From Gemmatimonadaceae bacterium (GTDB taxonomy: Bacteria > Gemmatimonadota > Gemmatimonadetes > Gemmatimonadales > Gemmatimonadaceae): a stretch of 64,000 bases of DNA. Position numbers and translations under genes: made by a program. How positions within the stretch are numbered: the first letter of the stretch is position 1; each line of letters opens with the position of its first letter. The notes under the pieces are model-generated. The model made no database searches. It was not told the DNA's origin and saw nothing but the letters and a program-made list of their open reading frames with translations. The stretch spans positions 1-64,000 of the forward strand of contig DASXKV010000020.1 in assembly GCA_036496605.1 (NCBI GenBank), in the 5' to 3' direction. Below are positions 5,794 to 59,399 of the stretch, one piece after another.

Positions 5794-5961
5794 TCATTTC
5801 TTGGGCCTCGGATGTGCGCGATCACCGCGCACAGCGATGCGCCAGATGAGCATCGACACGCCGATCGTCAGCAGCAGGTGAATCCAGCCTGGACCGTCGA
5901 GCAGCGTGCCAATTGCCCAGATGACGAGCAGTGCGATTGCCGCGATGATGCCGATGTCCAT
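5794..5961 (-). CDS. Small two-helix membrane protein (lmo0937-like)
   Basis: About 55 residues: MDIGIIAAIALLVIWAIGTL, a short Gly-Pro-containing turn, then a second hydrophobic helix (IHLLLTIGVSMLIW) and a basic tail. This matches the tiny lmo0937/DUF5670-type membrane proteins often found near stress genes. The start at 5961 is chosen because GAGGA sits 9 nt upstream; an ATG three codons earlier (5970) directly abuts it and is too close. It is convergent with the permease gene, 10 bp apart. Function unknown. Confidence 0.7.
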   Translation of the reverse strand: MDIGIIAAIALLVIWAIGTLLDGPGWIHLLLTIGVSMLIWRIAVRGDRAHPRPKK

Positions 5962-6323
5962 TGATTGCATTCCTCGTTTCGCGCTCGTAGATTGCGCGAC
6001 GTTCTTACAGGAGAATTTCGGGGCGGAGAACCATCGTTTTCGAGCCAACAAGTCCATTCGGTGGGTTCGATAATCTATGCTGACGTCATGCCCCCAGTGC
6101 GGGGGAAGGCGGAAGGCGTGGTGAGGGCCTCATACATTCGACTGGGCTTCGCAAAACCCTTCTTCGTTCCGACCTCTCGAGCCTCGCGGGAAACCGCGGG
6201 GCTCGACTCGTTCTGGGTGGTTGGTGGTAGCTGGTAGTTGGTGGTTGGTAGTTGGTAGTTGGTAGTTGATCTCCGACTCGCGCTAATATTCCGCAGGCAA
6301 CCAGCAACCAGCAACCAGCACCA
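5962..6323. other. Intergenic region before the pterin synthase gene
   Basis: This 362 bp spacer has no gene. It contains a 12 bp hairpin closed by a GAAA tetraloop (6178-6205) and, next to the pterin synthase start, a low-complexity G/T arm and C/A arm (6215-6332). The divergent small membrane protein gene must have its promoter at the left end; no clear -35/-10 pair was recognised for either gene. Confidence 0.6.
6178..6205. other. 12 bp hairpin with GAAA tetraloop
   Basis: CGAGCCTCGCGG, GAAA, CCGCGGGGCTCG: all 12 positions pair (one as a T-G/U-G wobble when transcribed rightward), and the loop is a GNRA tetraloop. Such a compact stem is likely to be functional as RNA, for instance a leader structure for the gene at 6324, but no known riboswitch class was recognised. 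Confidence 0.45.
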
Positions 6324-6332
6324 GTGGCCACC
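6215..6332. repeat. Low-complexity inverted repeat A (GGTTGGT arm / CAACCAGC arm)
   Basis: The left arm (6215-6268) is a degenerate string of GGT and AGTTGGT units; after a 27-bp spacer the right arm (6296-6332) is a string of CAACCAG units, roughly its complement. The GTG start codon of the next gene (6324) lies inside the right arm, where a ribosome binding site would be expected. Member of the nine-element family described in the findings. Confidence 0.7.
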
Positions 6333-6737
6333 GTCACCGTCGTCCGCCGCATGCAATTCAACGCGGCGCATCGCGTGCACAATCCCGCGCTCTCCGAGGA
6401 AGAGAATCGCGCGCTGTTCGGGAAATGCAACAATCCGAACTGGCACGGGCACAATTATACGCTGGACGTGTTTGTCACCGGTCCTGTCGACGACCGGACG
6501 GGCTACGTCATCGACCTCGCAAAGCTCAAGGCAATTGTGCAGCGCGAGGTCGTCGACAAAGTCGATCATCGAAACCTGAATCTCGAGGTCGATTTCATGC
6601 ACGGTGTCATCCCGACGACGGAGAATATTGTCGTCGGTATGTGGCGCGCGATCGAGCCCCACGTTACGCCGGGCCGCTTGACGCGCCTCGTGCTCTGGGA
6701 AACGCCGAACAACTACGTCGAGTACGACGGCCGGTGA
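6324..6737 (+). CDS. 6-pyruvoyl-tetrahydropterin synthase / 6-carboxy-tetrahydropterin synthase family
   Basis: A 137-residue T-fold enzyme. The zinc histidines are His16 (FNAAHRVH) and the HGH pair in GKCNNPNWHGHNYTLDV (about residues 32-48), and the catalytic cysteine is in the same block. The cysteine-to-HGH spacing with NNPN matches the animal and cyanobacterial pyruvoyl-tetrahydropterin synthases rather than E. coli QueD. It turns dihydroneopterin triphosphate into a tetrahydropterin in the cytoplasm, for either biopterin-type cofactors or the queuosine path. The GTG start sits within a CA-rich repeat arm. The next gene, 23 bp downstream, is a short-chain dehydrogenase that could act as sepiapterin reductase. 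Confidence 0.9.
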   Translation: MATVTVVRRMQFNAAHRVHNPALSEEENRALFGKCNNPNWHGHNYTLDVFVTGPVDDRTGYVIDLAKLKAIVQREVVDKVDHRNLNLEVDFMHGVIPTTENIVVGMWRAIEPHVTPGRLTRLVLWETPNNYVEYDGR

Positions 6738-6760
6738 CTGGCCGCCGCCGTTAGGCAGCC

Positions 6761-7474
6761 GTGAGCGCCACGCCGCTCGCCGGTCATCGCGCCGTCGTCA
6801 CCGGCGCATCGCGCGGCATCGGCCTCTCCATCGCGACCGCGCTCGCCGAAGCGGGCGCGAGTCTCACGCTGATGGCTCGTGACGAGCGCGCGCTCGACAA
6901 GCTGGCGTCGAAGCTCGGTGCGCGCGCGTTGCCATGCGACGTTGGCGACGGCGCAGCGGTCGAGCGCGCCATCACTGCCATCGAACGCGATGGCGCCTTC
7001 CCGCACATTCTCGTCAACAACGCGGGACTTTTCCGTCCCGCGGCGATCGACGCGACGACGCCCGAGGCGCTCACCGCTGCGCTCGACGTCAATCTCGTCG
7101 CGCCCTTCCGGCTCGTGCGCGCGTTCCTGCCCGCGATGCTCGAGCGCGGCGCCGGGCACATCGTGAGCATCGGCTCGATTGCCGATCATACGAGCTTTCC
7201 CGAGAACGCCGCGTACGGCGCGAGCAAACACGGACTGCGTGCGTTGCACGACGTTCTGCGCGCCGAGCTCCACGGGACTGGGGTTCGCATCACTCTGATT
7301 TCACCCGGGCCCGTCGATACGTCGCTCTGGGACGAGATCGATCCCGATTCACGCGAGGGGTTCACGCCACGCTCGCGGATGCTCCTGCCTAACGCCGTGG
7401 CCGCGGCAGTGCTCTTTGCACTGACCCAGCCGCCCGACGTCGACATCGAGCTGATCCGGCTTTCACGCAGCTGA
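6761..7474 (+). CDS. Short-chain dehydrogenase/reductase (possible sepiapterin-reductase role)
   Basis: A 237-residue classical SDR. The NAD(P) site is TGASRGIG (residues 15-22), NNAG is near residue 86, the catalytic Ser is in SIGSIA, and the YGASK motif supplies Tyr and Lys (about residues 148-152). It reduces a carbonyl with NAD(P)H. It follows the pterin synthase by 23 bp, with a CGTTAGGC motif in the gap, and is followed 11 bp later by the Trm112-like gene, so all three are probably one transcript. Position suggests reduction of 6-pyruvoyl-tetrahydropterin or sepiapterin; this is inference only. GTG start. Confidence 0.85.
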   Translation: MSATPLAGHRAVVTGASRGIGLSIATALAEAGASLTLMARDERALDKLASKLGARALPCDVGDGAAVERAITAIERDGAFPHILVNNAGLFRPAAIDATTPEALTAALDVNLVAPFRLVRAFLPAMLERGAGHIVSIGSIADHTSFPENAAYGASKHGLRALHDVLRAELHGTGVRITLISPGPVDTSLWDEIDPDSREGFTPRSRMLLPNAVAAAVLFALTQPPDVDIELIRLSRS

Positions 7475-12328: not shown

Positions 12329-12856
12329 ATGGCACCTCGCCGCACTTCCGTCGAACACTCCAAGGGCGTCTTCAACGTCGAGTGGCCGCTCTTTGGCGAG
12401 CTGTCGCGAGCGCTGGCCCTCAAAGTCTCGCGCGCCTACGATCCTGAAATCGTCATCGGCATCGCTACCGCCGGCGTCATTCCAGGCGCCGTGATCGCAG
12501 CGATCCTCGATCGTGAGTTTCATTCGATCGTCGTCAGCCGCCGTTATGGTGCCGACGCGCCACGCGACATACCTGCCGTGCTCGGCGGCGTCCCGTCGGC
12601 GGTTCGAAATCGACGTGTCCTCATCGTCGACGAGACGTGCGACAGCGGCGACACGATGCGTCTCGCGGTCAGCGCGCTCACCAGCGCTGGCGCCGCGGCC
12701 GTGCGCACCGCCGTCGGATTCAAGACCGGATCGTACGAGCCCGACTTTCATTCCATCGCGACGGAGAGCACGATCGTGCTGCCCTGGGATCGCGAGATCC
12801 TCATCGACGGCGAGTTGGTTACGAATCCACTCTACGCAGGCGTGCTCGGGACGTAG
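12329..12856 (+). CDS. Phosphoribosyltransferase-domain protein
   Basis: A 175-residue type I phosphoribosyltransferase fold. The PRPP-binding signature VLIVDETCDSGDTM lies at about residues 92-105 and the preceding GIATAGVIPGAVIA (45-58) forms the PPi loop. Length and layout fit the hypoxanthine/xanthine-guanine PRT or ComF-like groups, which move purine bases or unknown substrates onto PRPP; the specificity hood is not recognisable. The gene stands alone between two low-complexity inverted repeats (B and C). Confidence 0.8.
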   Translation: MAPRRTSVEHSKGVFNVEWPLFGELSRALALKVSRAYDPEIVIGIATAGVIPGAVIAAILDREFHSIVVSRRYGADAPRDIPAVLGGVPSAVRNRRVLIVDETCDSGDTMRLAVSALTSAGAAAVRTAVGFKTGSYEPDFHSIATESTIVLPWDREILIDGELVTNPLYAGVLGT

Positions 12857-12958
12857 TTGGTGGTTGGTGGTTGGTTATTCGTCGTTGGTGCAGAAGGAGC
12901 GCTCGCGAGCTTGGCTCGCAGCCAATCCGCCTGAGCAGCAACCCGCAACTAGCACCAG
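12854..12958. repeat. Low-complexity inverted repeat C
   Basis: The arm 12854-12890 begins with GTAGTTGGTGGTTGGTGGTT, a string of GG pairs able to form a two-tier G-quadruplex. The arm 12934-12958 (GCAGCAACCCGCAACTAGC) is its loose complement. A small GAGCTTGGCTC stem sits in the loop. It fills the gap between convergent genes, and the stop codon TAG of the phosphoribosyltransferase gene lies at its left edge. Confidence 0.65.
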
Positions 12959-38696: not shown

Positions 38697-38963
38697 TTAT
38701 TCGCTCTTCTTCGCGGCCGTGCTGTCGGTCTTGGCCTTGGTCGACTTCTTGGCCCTCTTCGACTTGGTGCTGGCCGTCTTGGCCGACGCTTCCGACTTGG
38801 GCGCAGCGGCGCTGGCGGAGGCCGATTTCTTGGACGACTTGGCGCCCTTCTTCGCAGCGGCGGTCGTGTCCGGCTTCGCCTGCTGCGTGGCCTGGGCGTG
38901 GAGCCGTGGAGCAACAGCAAGCATCAGAGCCGCGGCAGCCGCGGCGATGGTGAGGCGCTTCAT
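38697..38963 (-). CDS. Secreted Lys/Ala-rich protein
   Basis: An 88-residue product: signal peptide MKRLTIAAAAAALMLAVAPR up to about ALA-type AHA cleavage near residue 24, then a tail made almost only of Lys, Ala, Ser and Thr, histone H1-like in composition. Such tails bind polyanions (DNA, lipopolysaccharide or polyphosphate). GGAGG lies 4 nt before the ATG at 38963, which fixes the start. The strong terminator lies right after its stop. No family. Confidence 0.7.
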   Translation of the reverse strand: MKRLTIAAAAAALMLAVAPRLHAQATQQAKPDTTAAAKKGAKSSKKSASASAAAPKSEASAKTASTKSKRAKKSTKAKTDSTAAKKSE

Positions 38964-39136: not shown

Positions 39137-40852
39137 TTATCGCTCGATCGAGGCGAGTCGTCTCAACGCAACACGAATCGGAACGAGCGTCGAGCACAGA
39201 CAGAGCCCGGCGGCGAGGCCGAAGCCGAGGACCATCTCGCCAATGTCGCTTGGGCCCCCAAAAGCGCGGGCGCTCAAATAGCCGTACACCGGACGCGCTT
39301 CGAGGACCACGACGCCGCCGATGACCGCCACCGACGCCATCATGAAGAGAAGGCCGCCGAACGAGGTTGGAATCTGCGCGGCGTTCTCGGTTTCGAATTG
39401 CGGAAACAGCGTTCCAAAGCCAAGGGCGAGACCCGCGAGCGCAAGCGTCATCGCCGCGATGGTCACGACCGACACCACGAACATGAACGCGCTCACCTGG
39501 AGCAGATAGTTCGTCACGCCGACGATGACGAGGGCCAGCACGAGAAGGGGCAGCGTTCCGACCCAGAACTTCGACCACAGCAGATCGCGCACGGACATGG
39601 GGCTCGATCGCAGCAGCCACAGCGTACGCCCCTCGAGGCTCACTCCAGGGAAAATAAAGCGCGCGGCGATGGAGGCGAGCACAAAGCCAGCCAGAACGAG
39701 ATTCAAAAAGGGCACGACATTGCGCAGGAAAAACGTCATGCCGTCGCCCTTCAGCGGGAGAAACTTGATGTTGAACACATACACGACGACCAGCACTGCA
39801 AGAAGCAGCAGCTGCGACCACTGCGTGGTGTCGCGAAAGAAGACTCGCAGCTCTTTGAGGACGAGCTCCCGACGTAACACGCCTAACGGTGCGAGTGCCC
39901 AATCGGCGAACCGGCGCAGCAGCGTCCCCCGCACCCACCGTTCGGCGCTCTCCTGCGCCTTGCTGAAGCCTTGGGGATACAGGCGCCAGTGCAGCAGCGC
40001 GCCGAGTACGACCGCTGCCGCAGCAGTCGACCAGAGCAGATACCAGGGAAGGAGATCGATCTTGTAGGTGAGCCATGCCATCGTTGCGCGCTGCACCCAC
40101 TCGCTAGGCAGCAGCGGCGACGTCGGCGTCCGCAGCAGCGTGATGAAATCGACGAGCGAGCGAAAACCCTCGGGCTTGGCGAAGCGCTCCGGCCGGACGA
40201 GGCGGAAGAGTAGTACGATTCCGCTCGCCGTCAGAATCGCGATCACGCTCAGGATATCGCGGGTCCGCCGCGCCGGGAAAATGTTGACGAGGAGAAGGGT
40301 GACGGCGGAGCCGATTGCCGCGGGAATGACGAAGAAGGGAATCAGCAGCGCGGCGACGACGAGCGGAAAAAACCAGCCACCAGAGAACACCACGCCGAAC
40401 GCCGCGAAAAGCGGTACGGCCATCAGCAAGACCATCCAGCTCGAGTACACGAGCGTCTCGAGCAGTTTCGCGCCATACAACTTGAGCCAATCGACTGGTC
40501 CGGCGACCAGAAGGTCGAGGTCTCGCGCGAGAAAAAAGCTCGAGAGCGCGGTGATGACGTTCGACAGCAGCAAGATCGAGAAGAAGCCGATGAGAATCAG
40601 GCCGAGCAGCTTCCCCGCGAGCAACGGACCAATCTCCTGCACGTCCCGGAAATACCGCAGCAGCCGAAAGACGACGCCGAAGATGAACGCCCAGAAGAAC
40701 ACACCGAAAACTCCGAGGACGAGCCAACGCGCGCCGCGACGGCGCTCGCCAGCGAGCGCGCGCGATTTCGCCGTTAGGTATTTCGGCAATAGCAGGTGAA
40801 GAAGTCCAGGATTCGGTACGCCGACTGGCTCCGTGTCCGCTCTCGGATCCAC
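39137..40852 (-). CDS. ABC exporter permease
   Basis: A 571-residue protein with about twelve hydrophobic segments in two bundles and no signal peptide. It matches the putative ABC-exporter permease family that carries a long cytoplasmic opening and pairs with a single ATPase. It starts 10 bp after the ATPase gene stop (40863-41621), both leftward, so the two make one exporter for an unknown hydrophobic or lipid substrate. CCTAACG at 39889 is read Leu-Gly; CGTTAGG at 40772 as Leu-Thr. Confidence 0.85.
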   Translation of the reverse strand: MDPRADTEPVGVPNPGLLHLLLPKYLTAKSRALAGERRRGARWLVLGVFGVFFWAFIFGVVFRLLRYFRDVQEIGPLLAGKLLGLILIGFFSILLLSNVITALSSFFLARDLDLLVAGPVDWLKLYGAKLLETLVYSSWMVLLMAVPLFAAFGVVFSGGWFFPLVVAALLIPFFVIPAAIGSAVTLLLVNIFPARRTRDILSVIAILTASGIVLLFRLVRPERFAKPEGFRSLVDFITLLRTPTSPLLPSEWVQRATMAWLTYKIDLLPWYLLWSTAAAAVVLGALLHWRLYPQGFSKAQESAERWVRGTLLRRFADWALAPLGVLRRELVLKELRVFFRDTTQWSQLLLLAVLVVVYVFNIKFLPLKGDGMTFFLRNVVPFLNLVLAGFVLASIAARFIFPGVSLEGRTLWLLRSSPMSVRDLLWSKFWVGTLPLLVLALVIVGVTNYLLQVSAFMFVVSVVTIAAMTLALAGLALGFGTLFPQFETENAAQIPTSFGGLLFMMASVAVIGGVVVLEARPVYGYLSARAFGGPSDIGEMVLGFGLAAGLCLCSTLVPIRVALRRLASIER

Positions 40853-40862
40853 GTTCAGCCCT

Positions 40863-41621
40863 CTACGCGTTCAAGACCGCGACCAGTTCGCGCGCCGCGT
40901 TCTCGCCTGTGAGCTTGAGGAAGATGTGCTCGAGGCCCGTTGCGCCTGCTTCGGCATCGCGGCGCAGCTCGTCCATGGTGCCGCACGCGCGAATCTTCCC
41001 GCCCTGGATGATCCCGATCCGATCACACAACGCCTGCGCGACCTCGAGCGTGTGCGTCGACATCATTATCGTATGGCCGCGACGCGTGTACTCGCGGAAG
41101 AGATCCTTCAGGATCTTTGCCGCTTTCGGATCGAGACCGACCATCGGCTCATCGACGACGATGACGTCGGGACGATGAACGAACGCGCTCGAGATGATCA
41201 GTTTCTGGCGCATGCCGTGGCTATAGCTCTCGACCAGCTCGTCGCGCCACTCCTCGAGGTCGAACAGTGCAAGCAGTTCGCGCGCGCGATGGTCGATTTT
41301 TGGGCCGCTCTGATCGTAGAGTCCGGCCACGAATCGGAGGAATTCCGCGCCGGTGAGCTTTTCGTATATGAAAGGGCGATCCGGAATGAATCCGAGCTTG
41401 GACTTGGCCGCCGTCGGATCGGCGACGATGTCGATGCCCGCGATCTCGATGCGGCCGGCGGTAGGACGCAGGATACCAGCGATCATGCGGAGCGTCGTCG
41501 TCTTGCCAGCGCCGTTAGGCCCGAGAAACCCAAACAGCTCACCGCGCGGCACCGAAAGATCGATGCTGTCGACGGCGGTGAACGAGCCGTAGCGCTTGGA
41601 CAGGGACGAGAGCCGGATCAT
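40863..41621 (-). CDS. ABC transporter ATP-binding protein
   Basis: A 252-residue nucleotide-binding subunit: Walker A GPNGAGKTT (about 35-43), signature YSHGMRQKL (about 133-141, the LSGGQ position of DRA/NatA-like exporters), Walker B VIVVDEPMVGLD (about 155-166) and the switch His in MSTHTLE. It powers the permease encoded directly downstream. CGTTAGG at 41513 is read as Pro-Asn inside Walker A. Confidence 0.95.
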   Translation of the reverse strand: MIRLSSLSKRYGSFTAVDSIDLSVPRGELFGFLGPNGAGKTTTLRMIAGILRPTAGRIEIAGIDIVADPTAAKSKLGFIPDRPFIYEKLTGAEFLRFVAGLYDQSGPKIDHRARELLALFDLEEWRDELVESYSHGMRQKLIISSAFVHRPDVIVVDEPMVGLDPKAAKILKDLFREYTRRGHTIMMSTHTLEVAQALCDRIGIIQGGKIRACGTMDELRRDAEAGATGLEHIFLKLTGENAARELVAVLNA

Positions 41622-41628
41622 CGGAGAG

Positions 41629-41703
41629 CCTAGGGGCTAGGGGATTAGGGGCTAGAGAAACGAGCCGGATCGATACACCCGAGCCCCCAGGCTCTAGCCC
41701 CTC
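41629..41703. repeat. Low-complexity inverted repeat G (GGGGCTA arm)
   Basis: Left arm CCTAGGGGCTAGGGGATTAG... (41629-41655) and right arm GAGCCCCCAGGCTCTAGCCC (41682-41703) complement each other loosely around a 26-nt loop. The left arm has three runs of four G. The right arm supplies the TAG stop codon of the transglutaminase gene, so the element reaches into the coding end. Confidence 0.65.
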
Positions 41704-43265
41704 AGTACGTTGAGTTTCAGTCTTCCCATTAGACGAATCATCTCGGCCTGGCGTCCCAAGCCGCCCACGGTGAAGCGCAGGTGCGCAGCGTCGGCGGGGA
41801 ATTCGCCAAAGGTCGGATCGACCGATACCCAGTCGCGAAGGAAGACCTCCGGCCACGCATGGTAGTAGAACTTGCCGTCGATGTAGGCGAGGCCCGCGTC
41901 GACGCGCGCTGGGATGCCTGCCGCTCGCGCCAGCGCGACGAACAATTGCGCGTGCTCGTTGCAGTCCCCGCCGCGCGCCCGTAGCACCTGAAGTGCGCTG
42001 GGAATACCAAAAGTGATACGCTTCGTGAGCGAATCATAAACCCACTGATTGATTCGCTGGGCGACGATGCGTGGATCGTGCTGGCCGCGCGCAAGCCGCC
42101 GCGCCAAACGCACGATGTCCGGGTGATTGCTCTGTACGAGCGGCTCGGCCATCGTGAGCTCCGGCAGTATCTTCCGGCCGCCGTCGGGCAGCGCATATGG
42201 CGCAGCGAGTGCTTCCGGTGGTTCTCGCGTCACGATCATCGTGTCGCCGTGCATGCTCTGGCGCGGGCTACGGAGATCGAAGCCGCGGAGGTCGGCGTTG
42301 CCTAACGTGACACGGAGCGATGCAATGTTCGGATCGACGCGCCGATTCGCACCGATCGCGGTCGTCTCGAGAATGTCGCGGTCCTCCGAGATCGGCTCCG
42401 CCACGACGCGCTTGACCGTCGAGAGTCGCCAGTTCTCGAATGCCACCTCGTACGGCGAACGTCGCAACTCGAATCCCAGCTGTGACGTCTGAATGACTCG
42501 TCCCTGCTCGTCGATCCAGCCCGAGAAGCCGGCCGCGCCTGCGCCCGTATCGGTGACGACTTGGTAGGCACGCAACGTGTCGGGCTGTACGCCATGCCAG
42601 ATCTCCGTCGCTCGATCGAGCGCCGAGCTGTCGTTCACAACGAAGCTCGATTCGGCGGCGATGCGGAGTGACACATCGCGCGGCGTGAGACCGACAGGAT
42701 CGAAGACCGGCATGTTGTACTTGCGGCCAACCTTCGGTTGTTCGCCGAGGGCAACGGCGAGCGGGAGGAGCGTGGGCAGGAGAATCGGCCCGGAGAGCTT
42801 GATGCGCTGCGTGTCCACCGGCGCATCATTGCCGGTGGAAAGCATGAGAATCAGTAGGGAGTCACCGAGAACGCGACCGCGGGCCACGATTGGTCCCGCG
42901 TCAGCCTCGAAGGTGACGACGAAGGCCTTCGTCCGCAGCGCGCGCGTGAGCACGACATGGGTGCGCGCCGACGCGCGATGCGTTCGGCCGCCCACCGGCA
43001 AATCGGCGACGAGGTAGTCGTCGACCGAGATCGTCGTCGTCGCCGTGTCGATCGAGGACGACGCGAAGCCAATCTGCCGATTGCCCTGCATCACCGCGTA
43101 ATACACCGCGCCCGGCGAAACGCGCATCGCTGCTTCCGCGAGACGCTCCGTATTCGGCCGGAAGTACTCGCGCCTAACGAGAAATCCGAGCCCGCCCATC
43201 CAGAGCAGGAGCACGAGCAACGCCGCCAGCGCCCGCGGACTCGTGGGGCGGAGTCGCGTAGTCAT
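41694..43265 (-). CDS. Secreted transglutaminase-like protein
   Basis: A 523-residue protein with an N-terminal membrane anchor (ALAALLVLLLWMGGLGFLV), a beta-rich middle and a C-terminal transglutaminase-like domain: catalytic Cys in GGDCNEHA (about 431), His in YYHAWPEV (about 470) and Asp in VDPTFGEF (about 482). Bacterial members act as proteases or cross-linkers in the periplasm. It follows the macro-domain gene by ATGA overlap (43262-43265) and precedes the ABC exporter; the set may handle one peptide or wall substrate, by inference. Confidence 0.88.
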   Translation of the reverse strand: MTTRLRPTSPRALAALLVLLLWMGGLGFLVRREYFRPNTERLAEAAMRVSPGAVYYAVMQGNRQIGFASSSIDTATTTISVDDYLVADLPVGGRTHRASARTHVVLTRALRTKAFVVTFEADAGPIVARGRVLGDSLLILMLSTGNDAPVDTQRIKLSGPILLPTLLPLAVALGEQPKVGRKYNMPVFDPVGLTPRDVSLRIAAESSFVVNDSSALDRATEIWHGVQPDTLRAYQVVTDTGAGAAGFSGWIDEQGRVIQTSQLGFELRRSPYEVAFENWRLSTVKRVVAEPISEDRDILETTAIGANRRVDPNIASLRVTLGNADLRGFDLRSPRQSMHGDTMIVTREPPEALAAPYALPDGGRKILPELTMAEPLVQSNHPDIVRLARRLARGQHDPRIVAQRINQWVYDSLTKRITFGIPSALQVLRARGGDCNEHAQLFVALARAAGIPARVDAGLAYIDGKFYYHAWPEVFLRDWVSVDPTFGEFPADAAHLRFTVGGLGRQAEMIRLMGRLKLNVLRG

Positions 43266-43765
43266 GGGCCAATCCGGGCGAGCGCCAGTGACAGGGCTCG
43301 TTCTTCCTCAGGCGTTTCGGCGACGAGCGTGATCGATTCGGGATAGCGTGCACCGAGCAGGTGCTGAGAAATCACACCAAGCATGATCTTCGCGCTCTCG
43401 TCGACCTCGAGATTGCCGGCGCCGAGTCCAAAAGGCGGGATGGCGACATCCTTGATCTGCCACGACTCGACGCGTTGCAGCGCGCTCGTCAGCGCTCGAC
43501 GCACGGAATCGGAGGTCACGCGCTCGTTGCGACTCATTACAACGGCGTGCACGAGCAACTTCGCGGAAAGCGCTCCCGCCGCCGTGACGACGGCCGCACC
43601 GACCGGCAGCGGCTCTTGAAGACGAATCTGATCGTGCAATTGCGCCCCCGCGGCGAGCTCGAGCCGCCGGAGAAGCGGTGTCGTCGCACCGAGATCTTCG
43701 TTCACCGGCCGGACGATTGCCTCTCCGTCGAAGAACGCGAGATCATCGATGCGGACTCGAATCAC
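43262..43765 (-). CDS. Macro-domain-like protein
   Basis: A 167-residue macro-domain fold: DGEAIVRPVNEDL for the first ADP-ribose loop, VGAAVVTAAGALSAKLLVHAV, SVRRALTSALQRVE and AIPPFGLGAGNL. The usual NAAN and GGGGV loops are altered (RPVN, no glycine run), so ADP-ribose binding may be lost or changed. It lies between a TPR gene and the transglutaminase gene with overlaps on both sides. A nucleotide-derived ligand is likely, its identity unknown. Confidence 0.78.
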   Translation of the reverse strand: MIRVRIDDLAFFDGEAIVRPVNEDLGATTPLLRRLELAAGAQLHDQIRLQEPLPVGAAVVTAAGALSAKLLVHAVVMSRNERVTSDSVRRALTSALQRVESWQIKDVAIPPFGLGAGNLEVDESAKIMLGVISQHLLGARYPESITLVAETPEEERALSLALARIGP

Positions 43766-44538
43766 CGTCGTTGGGCTTCTCGGGCTCTCTGGTATGCGGC
43801 GGTGGCTTCGGCCGGCCGCCCTAGCTTGTCGAGGACGATTCCGACGCCCTTCAGGGCACGGTAGTTCGACGGCTGGAGCTTGGCGGCTTCTTCATATGAC
43901 GCCAACGCAAGCTTGTGCTGGTCCGTCTGGTTGTACGCCTCGCCCAGGTAATAGTGCCCTTGGGGATTGGATGGATCGAGCTCCGCCGCGCGTTGCAATG
44001 GCTCTATGGCTTCACGCCACCGCGCCTTCTTGCAAAAGAGCACGCCGAGGTTGAACAGCACCTCGGCGCTGTCGACATCGATCTTCGCCGCGCGGCGAAG
44101 GTCTGCCTCGGCCTGCTCATACCGCTGCAGTGCCATCTGGACCGCGGCGCGTCCACAAAGCAGCGACACATCGTCAGGTTGGGCGTCGATGGCGCGTCCG
44201 AGCTCCCCGAGCGCGCCGAGGAAGTCGCCGTTTTGCTCGAGAACATCGGCGAGCCCGCGACGCGCGCTGACGTCATCCGGATGACGCGTGAGATGTGCGC
44301 GATATGCGCTTGCCGCTTCCATGAGATCCCCGTTGTTCGCGAGCTCCGCCGCCCGTGCGACCGGATCATTCTCGCGCTGCGCTCGATCGGCTGGCCCGCT
44401 GCTCGCATCCGCGAGCGGCGCGGGAACCGGTGCGGCGCTACGATCGATCTCCATCGGTATTTGCTCAGGCGGCTGCTGTGGACTCCGAGCTTCACGATTC
44501 GCATCGGAGCGGTCCGTTGGGTTCTTCGACTGCGTCAT
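43762..44538 (-). CDS. TPR protein
   Basis: About 258 residues from ATG at 44538 (a start at 44577 would overlap cutA by 37 bp). A disordered Pro/Ser/Ala N terminus is followed by five tetratricopeptide repeats (ARAAELANNGDLMEAASAYR, LGELGRAIDAQPDD, and so on). It starts 2 bp after the cutA stop and overlaps the macro-domain gene, so it belongs to the cutA-TPR-macro-transglutaminase run. Partner unknown. Confidence 0.82.
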   Translation of the reverse strand: MTQSKNPTDRSDANREARSPQQPPEQIPMEIDRSAAPVPAPLADASSGPADRAQRENDPVARAAELANNGDLMEAASAYRAHLTRHPDDVSARRGLADVLEQNGDFLGALGELGRAIDAQPDDVSLLCGRAAVQMALQRYEQAEADLRRAAKIDVDSAEVLFNLGVLFCKKARWREAIEPLQRAAELDPSNPQGHYYLGEAYNQTDQHKLALASYEEAAKLQPSNYRALKGVGIVLDKLGRPAEATAAYQRAREAQRR

Positions 44539-44540
44539 CT

Positions 44541-44873
44541 TCACGTCAAGGCCAAAGAAGTCTCGCCATTGATCCAATCGAGGTATTTGCCTAACCCTGC
44601 CGAAACCGGCAGCGCGAGCAGCTCCGGCACTTTGTACGGATGCAGCTCGCCAAAAGCAGTTTGCAACGATTCCAATCGCGCCGATCGCGTCTTGAGGAGT
44701 ACGACCACTTCACGCTCGTCGGCAATCTTGCTTTGCCAGCGATAAAGCGACCGAGCGGCGGGAAGAAGTGTCCCGCAGGCGATCAGCCGACGCTCGAGCA
44801 AGGTCCGTACGAATTTTACGGCCTCATCCTCGGAGGCGACGGTTGTGAGAACGACGATGGCGTCGGTGTGCAC
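44541..44873 (-). CDS. cutA: Divalent-cation tolerance protein CutA
   Basis: A 110-residue trimeric ferredoxin-like protein: [21 protein letters not shown] at the start, [19 protein letters not shown] in the middle and [16 protein letters not shown] at the end are the CutA blocks. Proposed roles are copper tolerance and signalling, still unsettled. The GTG at 44873 is used because the upstream frame runs into the GT-rich repeat arm. Divergent from uvrA. Confidence 0.92.
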
Positions 44874-44953
44874 GTGGTGGATGGTGATTGGTGACTGGTG
44901 CAATGTATCGAGCCACCAGCAACCAACCACCAGCAACCTTCCGCCCACCACCG
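44874..44953. repeat. Low-complexity inverted repeat D
   Basis: G/T arm 44874-44900 (GTGGTGGATGGTGATTGGTG) and C/A arm 44912-44953 (CCACCAGCAACCAACCACCAG) between the divergent cutA and uvrA starts. The G/T arm directly abuts the cutA start codon. Any promoters for both genes have to overlap it. Confidence 0.7.
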
Positions 44954-45001
44954 ACCCTTTCCCTTGTCTCGATCCGGTTCGCGCCACAGCTTTCCCTGGC
45001 T

Positions 45002-47842
45002 ATGGCAGAAGACGCACTGGTCATTCGCGGCGCGCGCGAGCACAATCTTCGGAACATCGACGTCAGGATCCCGCGCGATCGGCTGACGGTAGTCACCGGC
45101 CTGTCGGGTTCGGGAAAGTCCTCGCTGGCGTTCGATACGATCTACGCCGAGGGGCAGCGACGGTATGTCGAGTCGCTGTCGGCGTACGCGCGGCAGTTCC
45201 TCGGTCTCATGGAGAAGCCCGACGTCGACTCGATCGAAGGATTGTCGCCGGCGATCTCCATCGAACAGAAGTCGGCGGGCCACAATCCGAGATCGACGGT
45301 GGGCACGGTCACCGAGATCTACGATTACTTGCGTCTGCTGTACGCACGGGTCGGCACGCCGCACTGCCCGAACTGCGGCCGGCCCGTTCAGCGCCAGAGC
45401 GCCGGCCAGATCGCGGACATTATCCTATCATGGCCGGAAGGCGCGCGCATCGAGGTGCGAGCGCCGCTCGTGCAAGGTCGAAAGGGCGAGTTCCGCGAGC
45501 TTTTCGAGACGGTGCGCAAGCAAGGATTCATTCGCGCGTATGTCGATGGAGAGCTGATCGAAGTCTCCGATCCGCCGAAGCTCAATCGCCGTCAGAATCA
45601 CACCATCGAGGTAGTGGTCGATCGTCTCGTCGTGCGCGCGGAAGATCGCGGACGACTCGCTGACTCGCTCGAGACGGCGCTGAAGCTCGCGGACGGACTC
45701 GTGCAGGTGAGCCGAGCGGAGGACGAGCACGTCGAGCTCTTCTCGGAACGGTATGGCTGCCCGACCTGCGGTATCTCGTTGCCGGAGCTCGAGCCGCGCC
45801 ACTTCTCGTTCAACTCGCCCTTTGGCGCCTGCACCGCGTGTGGCGGTCTCGGCACGCGACGGCGTGTCAGCGAAGAGCTCATCCTCGGTGATCCGCGCAT
45901 TTCGATTCTCGAGGGTGTGATAATTCCCTGGGGAGAGCCTCAGGGATATCTGCGCAAGATCGTACTGCCGGCGATCGCTCGCGCGCTCAAGTTCGATCTC
46001 AACGCGCCGTGGGGCGAGCTCCCGAAGAGCGTGCGCGACACGATCCTCGGCGGCGACGGCGGCAAGAAGAAGGGCGAGTTCGAGTGGGAAGGAGTGCTCG
46101 CCAACATCGAGCGTCGTTATGCAGAGACGGACTCGGACACCGTGCGGGCCGAGCTCGAGGCCTACATGGTTGCGGTGCCGTGTGCCGAGTGTGGCGGACG
46201 CCGGCTCAAGCGCGAAGCCCTTGCCGTGACCGTGGCCGACCGGAACATCGGGGAGCTCACGGAGCTTGCCGTCACGGAGGCGTTGGAGTTCTTCGAGAGG
46301 GTTCCGGTGCGCGGTCACGGACGTCCGGGCATCGATCCGGAGATCGCCGGTCCGATCCTCAAGGAAGTGCGCGAGCGGCTCCGTTTCCTCGTCGACGTGG
46401 GGTTGGACTATCTCACGTTAGGCAGAGCGGCCGAATCGCTCTCCGGCGGCGAGGCGCAACGCATTCGCCTGGCCACGCAGATTGGCTCGCGACTCGTGGG
46501 CGTGTTGTACATCCTCGATGAGCCGTCGATCGGGCTGCATCAGCGCGACAACGCCCGTCTCATCGCCACGCTCGAGCAGCTGCGCGACCTCGGAAACACC
46601 GTCATCGTCGTCGAGCACGACGAAGAGACGATGCGCGCCGCGGACTACATCATCGACCTTGGTCCTGGCGCCGGAAAGCACGGTGGAGAGGTGATCGCCG
46701 TGGGGACGATCCGCGACATCGTGCAGAACTCGAATTCGATCACGGGCAAGTACCTTAGCGGCGAGATGGAGATCCGCACGCCGAGTGGCCGCCGTTCTGT
46801 GGATCGGCGGCGTGTGATTCGCGTCGAGGGCGCGCGCGAGCACAACTTGCGGAATCTCGACGTCGAAGTGCCGTTAGGCGTATTCGTCGCCGTGACGGGT
46901 GTGTCGGGCTCGGGGAAGTCGACGTTGATCGAGGACATTCTCCATCGATCACTCGCGCGGCATTTCTATCGGGCGCGTGTCATTCCCGGGCAGCACCGGC
47001 GGATCACTGGTCTCGAGCACATCGACAAAGTCATCGACATCGATCAGAGCCCAATCGGTCGCACGCCTCGCTCGAATCCGGCAACGTACACCGGACTTTT
47101 CACGCCGATTCGCGAGCTGTTCGCCGAACTGCCGGAAGCGAAGATTCGCGGCTACGGCCCTGGCCGATTCTCCTTCAATGTGAAGGGAGGTCGGTGTGAG
47201 GCGTGCCAGGGCGACGGCCTCGTCAAAATCGAGATGCACTTCCTCCCCGACGTTTACGTTCCGTGCGAGGTGTGCAAGGGGAAGCGCTACAATAGAGAGA
47301 CGCTCGAGGTGCGATTCCGCGGCAAGAGCATCGCCGACGTTTTGGAGCTCACCGTCGAGGACGCATTGCACTTTTTCGAGAACCAACCGCGGATTCGACA
47401 GAAGCTCGAGACCGTAAACGATGTCGGGCTCGGTTACATCCATCTTGGCCAGAGCGCGACGACGCTGTCCGGTGGAGAGGCGCAACGAGTGAAGCTCGCG
47501 ACCGAGCTCTCGAAGCGAGACACAGGCCGCACGTTATACATCCTCGACGAGCCGACGACCGGCCTGCACTTCGAGGACGTGCGTCTGCTGCTCGACGTGT
47601 TGCATCGTCTGGTCGATCGGGGGAACACGGTGCTCGTGATCGAGCACAATCTCGACGTGATCAAGACAGCGGATTGGATCATCGATCTCGGGCCGGAGGG
47701 CGGGACCCGCGGCGGCGCTGTTGTCGCCGCGGGAACGCCGGAAGAAGTCGCGATGATTGAGGACAGTCATACGGGGCACTACCTCAAGCCCTTGCTCGAG
47801 CGGAAGCGGCAGTCGCGGCGAGCACTTTCAGCCATTGGGTAA
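45002..47842 (+). CDS. uvrA: Excinuclease ABC subunit A
   Basis: A 946-residue damage-sensing ABC ATPase with two nucleotide-binding halves: Walker [10 protein letters not shown] (about 34) and GVSGSGKST (about 634), zinc fingers CPNCGRP, CPTCG...CTACGG and CEACQG...CEVCKG, and two LSGGEAQR signatures. It finds bulky lesions with UvrB. The ATG at 45002 gives the normal family length; the upstream open frame runs through the repeat. Followed by the serine dehydratase gene. Confidence 0.97.
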
Positions 47843-48602: not shown

Positions 48603-48654
48603 CCCTAGCCCCTAGCCCTAGCCCTAGCCCTAGCCCCTAGCCCCTAGCCCCTAG
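48603..48654 (+). repeat. Tandem CCCTAG/CCCCTAG array (element H)
   Basis: Eight head-to-tail units of 6 or 7 bp, CCCTAG or CCCCTAG, fill most of the gap between the two serine dehydratase genes. On the other strand this is eight GGG(G)CTA units, close to the telomeric GGGTTA pattern and able to fold into G-quadruplexes. Only one arm of the repeat is clear here. Confidence 0.85.
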
Positions 48655-48666
48655 CAACTTTGAGTC

Positions 48667-57075: not shown

Positions 57076-57152
57076 GGTTGTTGGTTCTCGGTCGTTGGTG
57101 GTTGGTGAAGACGGACGCACCAACAACGAACGACCAATCACCAACCACCACC
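57076..57152. repeat. Low-complexity inverted repeat E
   Basis: G/T arm 57076-57107 (GGTTGTTGGTTCTCGGTC) and C/A arm 57118-57152 (CACCAACAACGAACGACC and on), 10 nt apart, a long near-perfect hairpin between nusG and rplK inside the ribosomal operon. Confidence 0.72.
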
Positions 57153-57189
57153 GTCAGCCACCACTCTGACGCAAAACTCCAGTGGGAGT

Positions 57190-58939: not shown

Positions 58940-59335
58940 ATGCCAACGACGCTGAGCAAGGACGAGATTATCGAAGCGATCGGCAATATGAGCGTTTTCG
59001 AACTGCATGATCTGATCGAGACGTTCAAGAGCCGTTTCAATGTGACCATCGCCGCCGCCCCGGTGGGCGCCGCCCCGGCCGCAGGTGGCGGCGGCGGTGC
59101 TGCTGCACCGGTCATGGAGGAGCAGACGGAATTCGATGTCGTCCTGAAGGAAGCGGGCGCGAAGAAGATTCAGGTCATCAAGGTCGTGCGTGAGCTGACC
59201 GGACTGGGCCTGAAGGAAGCGAAGGATCTGGTCGACGGTGCACCGCAGACGGTGAAGTCGGGTGTATCGAAGGACGAATCGGCCACTGTCAAGGCGAAGC
59301 TCGAGGAGCAAGGCGCGACGGTAGAAGTGAAGTAG
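58940..59335 (+). CDS. rplL: Ribosomal protein bL12
   Basis: A 131-residue stalk protein: N-terminal dimerisation helices ([20 protein letters not shown]), an Ala/Gly hinge, and the factor-binding C-terminal domain ([31 protein letters not shown]). GAGGAG precedes the ATG at 58940. Followed by repeat element F and the rpoB leader. Confidence 0.96.
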
Positions 59336-59399
59336 GGTGTTTGGTGGTTGGTGGTTCGTGCCAGCTCGCACCAATCACCAACAACCAACCACCAACAAC
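59336..59399. repeat. Low-complexity inverted repeat F
   Basis: G/T arm 59336-59360 (TTTGGTGGTTGGTGGTTCG) and C/A arm 59368-59399 (ACCAATCACCAACAACCAAC) with a 7-nt loop, starting on the base after the rplL stop. The tightest hairpin of the set. Confidence 0.75.

Follow-up and report, generated by a model that had tools for sequence, protein, structure and literature searches.

A conserved gene run in Gemmatimonadota combining CutA, a macrodomain with a replaced catalytic loop and a transglutaminase-fold protein with an ABC exporter pair

Introduction

Among the ATP-binding cassette (ABC) exporters of the ABC-2 type, GldA-GldFG works with periplasmic auxiliary proteins, and PII proteins regulate other transporters, as in GlnK-AmtB and SbtB. 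CutA, a PII-fold protein of unsettled function, is widespread; macrodomains are regarded as modules for ADP-ribose. Here, we describe a run of six genes in which CutA, a tetratricopeptide repeat (TPR) protein, a macrodomain protein and a membrane-anchored transglutaminase-fold protein (labeled TG below) are encoded directly ahead of an ABC ATPase and an ABC permease. The run was found in a Gemmatimonadaceae bacterium (GenBank assembly GCA_036496605.1, contig DASXKV010000020.1), in the stretch of 64,000 nucleotides from position 1 to 64,000 of the forward strand, the whole of which we call the window. Among the titles and abstract openings searched, drawn mostly from outside subscription journals and preprints, no paper describing this operon was found.

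The run resembles exporters of the GldA-GldFG type in that it encodes a separate ATPase, nearest the DrrA/GldA models (though below their cut-offs), an integral permease and a putatively anchored extracytoplasmic partner. On the other hand, its permease belongs to PF16949, the partner carries a different domain, and a CutA/TPR/macro module has been added. As in GlnK-AmtB and SbtB, a small PII-fold protein is encoded with a membrane transporter, but CutA is not PII, it is absent or located elsewhere in many lineages, and the association seen here is one of gene neighborhood. Our preferred reading, to which we assign a probability of about 0.4, is that the run encodes an ABC-2-type exporter that works with an anchored partner in the periplasm and is under the control of the cytosolic CutA/TPR/macro module.

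Results

The six genes lie on the minus strand in the order CutA, TPR, macro, TG, ATPase and permease, with start codons picked by eye and families assigned by Pfam models. CutA (44541–44873, GTG start) opens the run and matches PF03091 with an E-value of 7.8e-32 and 109.4 bits against a cut-off of 22.4. After a gap of 2 bases follows the TPR protein (43762–44538, ATG start), which matches PF00515, PF13432 and other Pfam TPR models and has no hydrophobic segment in the hydropathy scan. The macro gene (43262–43765, GTG start; PF01661, 50.0 bits against a cut-off of 22) overlaps the stop of the TPR gene by 4 bp, and the TG gene (41694–43265, ATG start; PF01841, E-value 5.1e-21, 75.4 bits against a cut-off of 23) overlaps the stop of the macro gene by the same length. 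Beyond a gap of ~72 bases (41622–41693) lies the ATPase (40863–41621; PF00005, E-value 2.2e-27), whose Walker A (GPNGAGKTT) and Walker B (VVDEP) motifs are intact by eye and which is nearest to the DrrA/GldA type, the top NCBIfam model being TIGR01188, below its cut-off. The permease (39137–40852) covers positions 8–541 of the 542 in PF16949 (E-value 6.6e-113, 378.8 bits) and shows 10 hydrophobic segments in a simple hydropathy scan. A sequence-only reading of this DNA had described leftward genes, with 4-bp overlaps or a 2-bp gap, leading to an ABC pair, and all of these genes are indeed in place on the minus strand.

A promoter scan found no sigma-70-like site, with 0.8 expected, and the terminator-like sites numbered 6 against 5.0 expected. 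In the gap between TG and ATPase, an 11-pair stem made of 7-base units is predicted (z-score −1.9; 8 of 200 shuffles fold equally well); the stem is present in two congeners as well, while 56 of the 99 fetched loci instead overlap by 4 bp at this place. A PADLOC search for anti-phage defence (E-values up to 1e-5) returned matches for the ABC ATPase alone, all to generic ATPase models, and the reading as a defence system was rejected.

We searched 395 genomes of the phylum and found a macro match in 179, a TG match in 259 and a PF16949 permease match in 277. These searches give the prevalences; the shares reported below among 113–115 loci do not, the loci having been picked by a macro match (L033–L132), by a TG match (L133–L171) or as a permease without TG (L172 and L173), and a gene called absent is one without a match to models grown from the window's relatives. 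The 100 neighborhoods fetched by macro match were annotated with models that took the window proteins as seeds. All six genes stand in the window order in 56 of the 99 loci with a scored macro, and the remainder are cut by a contig edge or are without at least one of the genes. In five rows of the order tally, a TPR match lies ahead of CutA, and some of these resemble a weaker TPR gene located further upstream. The six-gene order is kept in the Gemmatimonadota families f1, f2, f3, f4, f5 and f9, with the macro and TG proteins 35–61% identical to the window copies in the aligned sets, and a TPR match scoring above 180 is present in 97 fetched loci. Wherever TG and ATPase occur together (99 loci), TG comes first and the two share a strand; the 4-bp overlap of TPR and macro recurs in 80 of 83 loci.

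These results show that the order is not peculiar to the window and that it is kept far beyond chance expectation. Because the TPR/macro and TG/ATPase overlaps recur, the ABC pair belongs to the run, and its expression independently of the upstream genes, which would have separated it from them, appears improbable on the grounds of this coupling. Furthermore, the six genes are under purifying constraint, with ratios of non-synonymous to synonymous substitution rates (dN/dS) of 0.05–0.16 against two congeners (one congener only for the permease); synonymous divergence (dS) is ~1, so these values are rough. On the same footing, the ratios are 0.055 and 0.062 for CutA, 0.11 and 0.10 for the macro, and 0.048 and 0.063 for the ATPase, the last over 73 codons. 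The six-gene run is thus a conserved unit that looks like an operon, ABC pair included. Outside the phylum, Deinobacterium chartae was the only one of 14 control genomes to carry PF16949. A search of 72,556 plasmid records yielded two partial TG matches, two partial macro matches and no permease, and a plasmid-borne system was rejected.

The solved structure nearest to the macro protein, by sequence and by fold, is TTHA0132 (PDB 2dx6), the top fold match of a structure model of modest quality (predicted local distance difference test score, pLDDT, 53). In OiMacroD, residues N27, N30, D40 and G35–V39 are part of the loop and helix that bind the distal ribose and take part in catalysis; S130–Y134 are part of the diphosphate loop (PMC5413906). 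The window macro has a replaced catalytic loop, with Arg19-Pro20 and Arg33-Arg34 (sequence IVRPVNEDLGATTPLLRRLE), and retains the diphosphate loop G113xG115xG117-N118. We compared 97 run-type copies, the window copy included, with 12 paralogues that were hand-picked from the weaker matches of the phylum search and are encoded elsewhere in the phylum genomes. Aligned with the first NAAN Asn, the run-type copies have Arg in 88 cases, Trp in 7 and Asn in 1, followed by Pro in 83; the Gly-rich catalytic loop is gone, with Arg33 in 83 and Arg34 in 78 of the 97. The diphosphate-loop glycines are kept (G113 in 96, G115 in 90 and G117 in 94), as is Asp8, aligned with the usual GDI Asp, in 76. All 12 sampled paralogues keep the canonical NAAN/GxGVAGA, and in a quick unrooted tree, the run-type macros fall on one side of a single branch with a Shimodaira–Hasegawa-like approximate likelihood ratio test (SH-aLRT) support of 100.

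The run-type macro therefore shares the fold and the diphosphate-loop glycines with TTHA0132 and with the MacroD/YmdB hydrolases, whereas in most copies Arg-Pro...Arg-Arg replaces NAAN and the Gly-rich loop, and the gene belongs to an exporter operon. Judged from the residues, the macro is a remodelled site under selection, the altered positions being common to several families. The earlier description of a degenerate macro domain is right as to the catalytic loop and wrong as to decay: a decaying gene was rejected in view of the dN/dS of ~0.1 (rough, with dS ~1), and the altered residues recur across families as a consistent replacement motif. An active ADP-ribose hydrolase was deemed unlikely, the catalytic loop being lost.

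We then compared the presence of the genes under strict cut-offs, which dropped macro matches above ~2e-17 (53 of 179) and TG matches above ~1e-10 (30 of 259) and kept all 277 permeases. The permease is found in 118 and TG in 109 of the 126 macro genomes, and the permease in 221 of the 229 TG genomes. In ten genomes, macro and permease are present but TG gave no match; in the five such loci examined (G008, G018, G066, G341 and G214), the macro stands directly before the ATPase. CutA-(TPR)-macro occurs without a TG or permease match anywhere in the genome in G318, G134, G093, G151, G253 and G337. More than 5 kb of sequence extends beyond the macro in five of these six, while in G337, whose genome is 88% complete, the contig ends there; G093 has no TPR match, and the macro of G253 is split across two matches. 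A seventh genome, G143, was left out of this count, its macro having a paralogue-like score and no neighbors. All 19 loci that were chosen because they have TG but no good macro match retain TG-ATPase-permease, with TPR in 18 and CutA in 10. Next to uvrA in G269 and G039, nothing of the run but the ABC pair was detected. CutA, where present (21 of 36 sampled genomes), is a single copy, located in the operon or on another contig. In another class of the phylum (f11), the ATPase follows TG in 5 of the 6 loci sampled.

These patterns indicate that the run is a probable single operon of two separable modules, envelope and cytosolic, and the reduced operons (no macro, altered TG, N-terminal domain only, ABC pair alone, CutA-macro alone) show which parts can work without which. 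On a permease tree of 113 loci, the minimum number of changes is 9 for macro, 9 for CutA, 10 for TPR and 6 for a catalytic TG. Eight independent pairs differ in macro, and the TG state differs in about two of them, both times in the same direction as the macro, which is a hint of shared loss from too few pairs for a test; in the paired co-loss comparisons of macro with TG, TPR or CutA, the differing pairs were likewise too few to decide. In one locus (L122, genome G015; 5864–6835, plus strand), a single frame joins parts of the macro and permease genes, with TG and ATPase not detected, and resembles an intra-operon deletion. Genome G157 has two copies of the run on separate contigs (L118 and L044), possibly a second operon or a mixed assembly.

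Could the genes be unrelated housekeeping genes that were packed together by chance and are held by translational coupling, sharing nothing beyond co-expression? Each upstream gene is dispensable, and the single CutA lies elsewhere in several genomes, as this explanation would have it. It accounts poorly for an order kept across six families at the divergence noted above, for a 4-bp TPR/macro overlap so seldom broken, and for run-type macros that group together with a consistent new loop. We therefore consider mere co-expression unlikely, although it fares best among the alternatives.

The TG protein consists of a predicted anchor segment, an N-terminal domain reaching to about residue 285–370 and a Transglut_core domain at residues 386–484. 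The hydropathy scan finds one strong hydrophobic segment at residues 12–30 and a weaker one at 155–173. The protein had been called a periplasmic transglutaminase at first reading; the fold and the triad (C435/H469/D483 in the window copy) are those of the transglutaminase-like superfamily, whereas the periplasmic side is a prediction from the single N-terminal segment at residues 12–30. Across 112 homologous domains, the Cys-His-Asp triad is complete in 95, the window included, and catalytic residues are changed in 14 (AHD in seven, SRD in three, and SHD, THD, PHD and DGD in one each); of the remainder, two are cut off and one is masked. The catalytically altered proteins remain in the operon. 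In five genomes of family f7 (G120, G325, G359, G209 and G274) and in G010 and G033, TG is reduced to its N-terminal domain, and because the frame ends 5–65 bases before the ATPase, these loci have no room for a catalytic domain. No locus was found with the transglutaminase domain alone, without the N-terminal domain. An intact triad is thus usual yet dispensable, and the N-terminal domain is the part kept longest.

The N-terminal domain gave no convincing Pfam match in 24 members, with one marginal match to Pec_lyase_N (E-value 0.006) in a single member, and a comparison of TG with PDB sequences found no match outside the transglutaminase core. The AlphaFold model of TG, built from a 3-row alignment, has a mean pLDDT of 37.9, too poor for a fold search. 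In L154, L155 and L171, stand-alone proteins of this unnamed domain family (frames of 261–299 amino acids) lie directly before the ABC pair.

The core of TG matches PDB entry 6g49, which we take to be TgpA. TG shares with LapG and HvyA (the BTLCP family) and with TgpA a transglutaminase-core fold with Cys-His-Asp and a predicted location on the periplasmic side. HvyA is a transglutaminase-like protease, encoded in a capsule export locus, that requires its triad (PMC4241560). It is conceivable that the TG head acts in the same manner: as a cysteine protease in the periplasm, it would govern how a surface polymer or adhesin that the ABC exporter handles is released or assembled, with the cytosolic genes conveying the signal. 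The fold, the intact triad, the predicted membrane anchor and the HvyA precedent from an export locus favor such a switch. On the other hand, TG has a different N-terminal domain, a single anchor and a head that can be dispensed with or altered, as in the 14 changed domains, and no BTLCP family appears among the Pfam matches of the window TG (E-values up to 1) or of the 24 members (E-values up to 0.01). On balance, we regard a protease switch as quite improbable.

The window run is flanked by uvrA (45002–47842, plus strand; Pfam UvrA domains), which is divergent from it, and this flank is conserved in families f1 and f2. In deeper families, the place of the divergent uvrA is taken by an AMP-binding acyl-CoA ligase that heads the operon, for example at L071 2883–4757, L148 3032–5044, L063 3043–4920 and L081 3418–5661, four loci where the ligase matches PF00501 and PF23562. 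As counted over 115 permease loci, the flank holds UvrA in 71, the ligase in 30, both in 1 and neither in 15. The ligase would suit an operon that exports a fatty-acyl compound whose precursor the ligase makes, and it also precedes CutA-(TPR)-macro in all six genomes without TG or permease. The f1 and f2 loci, the window included, have uvrA at this position, with a single locus having the two together. Because the ligase stays with CutA-macro after the exporter is gone, it marks the cytosolic module rather than export, and this lipid route appears no more probable to us than the protease switch.

Downstream of the permease lies, on the same strand, a gene for a small secreted protein rich in Lys, Ala and Ser (38700–38963, minus strand; 88 amino acids, 19% lysine), a lineage-restricted neighbor whose relatives reach 25% lysine and which is not shown to be part of the operon; ccm genes follow on the opposite strand. 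Of the loci whose downstream sequence is long enough (108), seven have a Lys-rich secreted gene after the permease; they all belong to genera g1, g6 or g21, and a further copy (L134) was found by tblastn. A search of 148 family genomes gave a close form in three (G000, G390 and G360) and two weak matches elsewhere; this search was insensitive, since the copies that g6 and g21 carry next to the permease escaped it. Counting any small frame with a hydrophobic start in the 700 bases beyond the permease, the raw number is 37 of the 108 loci. A look for small precursor peptide genes nearby in other genomes, suggested at first reading, thus turned up the Lys-rich gene after the permease as a candidate, seen in three genera only.

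This gene bears on the first interpretation given to the run, in which macro and transglutaminase together modify an exported protein or peptide: TG would process or cross-link the cargo of the ABC pair, and the macro would handle an ADP-ribose-linked step. The intact triad of the window TG, its constant position before the ATPase, the Lys-rich gene behind the window permease and the shared direction of TG and macro changes in about two of eight pairs are consistent with it. Against it stand the lasso-peptide B2 leader-peptidase model, which scores 13.4 bits on TG, below its cut-off of 33, and the presence of the Lys-rich gene in just 7 of the 108 loci. Because the other genes persist where either enzyme has been replaced, altered or lost (the macro loop for ADP-ribose chemistry is gone, the TG head is missing or changed in loci that retain the N-terminal domain, the ABC pair and, in several cases, the macro, and the ten genomes without TG and the six without TG and permease keep the macro), joint modification is not supported, and a modification system is the least probable of the explanations that we weighed.

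Intergenic arrays of 7-base units (e.g., TTGGTGG and CTAGCCC) occur at several places in the window, a number of them with inverted copies facing each other as potential hairpins. A lag-7 scan located arrays at 6214–6325, 12852–12883, 48622–48661 and 59332–59399, and others were found by eye or by an inverted-repeat search at 41622–41693 (the TG/ATPase gap), about 44880–44960 and 57093–57153. The scan gave six clusters in the window and none in each of 10 block shuffles. In congener loci, arrays lie at about 8310–8400 of L031 and about 9820–9885 of L032. Their sequence varies between sites, and between congeners at one site, while the build is constant.

Discussion

In the reading that we prefer, a periplasmically assisted exporter under cytosolic control, the ATPase and the PF16949 permease would form an ABC-2-type exporter in the inner membrane, a function, and a direction of transport, suggested by their families and in keeping with the observed gene order. 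TG would be its membrane-anchored partner on the periplasmic side, with the transglutaminase-fold domain serving as a removable enzyme or binding head. In the cytosol, CutA, the TPR protein and the remodelled macro would be translated in step. The macro would no longer bind or cleave ADP-ribose in the usual way and may bind a phosphorylated, probably nucleotide-like ligand; we propose this because most copies retain the GDI-aligned Asp and the diphosphate loop, and conserved Arg residues stand in the loop for the distal ribose. CutA, the TPR scaffold and the macro would together control how active the exporter is, in the manner of PII proteins at other transporters. In families whose operon starts with the acyl-CoA ligase, the exported substrate could reasonably be guessed to be a fatty-acyl compound.

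Several observations weigh against this reading. The cytosolic genes persist in the six genomes without TG or permease, and CutA lies on another contig in some genomes, and because of this, the cytosolic module may serve some purpose other than this exporter. In the f11 loci, the PF16949 permease was not detected beside TG-ATPase, including in the two of five (L166 and L167) that had room for it. Furthermore, position 19 of the macro is Trp rather than Arg in the seven copies noted above.

A bolder version holds that the run-type macros are a new macrodomain class, in which remodelling has turned the catalytic loop into an Arg-rich phosphate site and which, with CutA and the TPR scaffold, forms a cytosolic sensor gating the ABC exporter. 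We consider this version a long shot. The components themselves are of known families; the replaced-loop macro subfamily and the link between CutA and an exporter may surprise a specialist. Over much of the phylum, an operon links an exporter to CutA and to a macrodomain family whose pocket has been replaced, and this provides a concrete context for both. If a sensor gating the exporter is indeed what these genes encode, it would give CutA its first defined job and the macrodomain a signaling role other than that of ADP-ribose.

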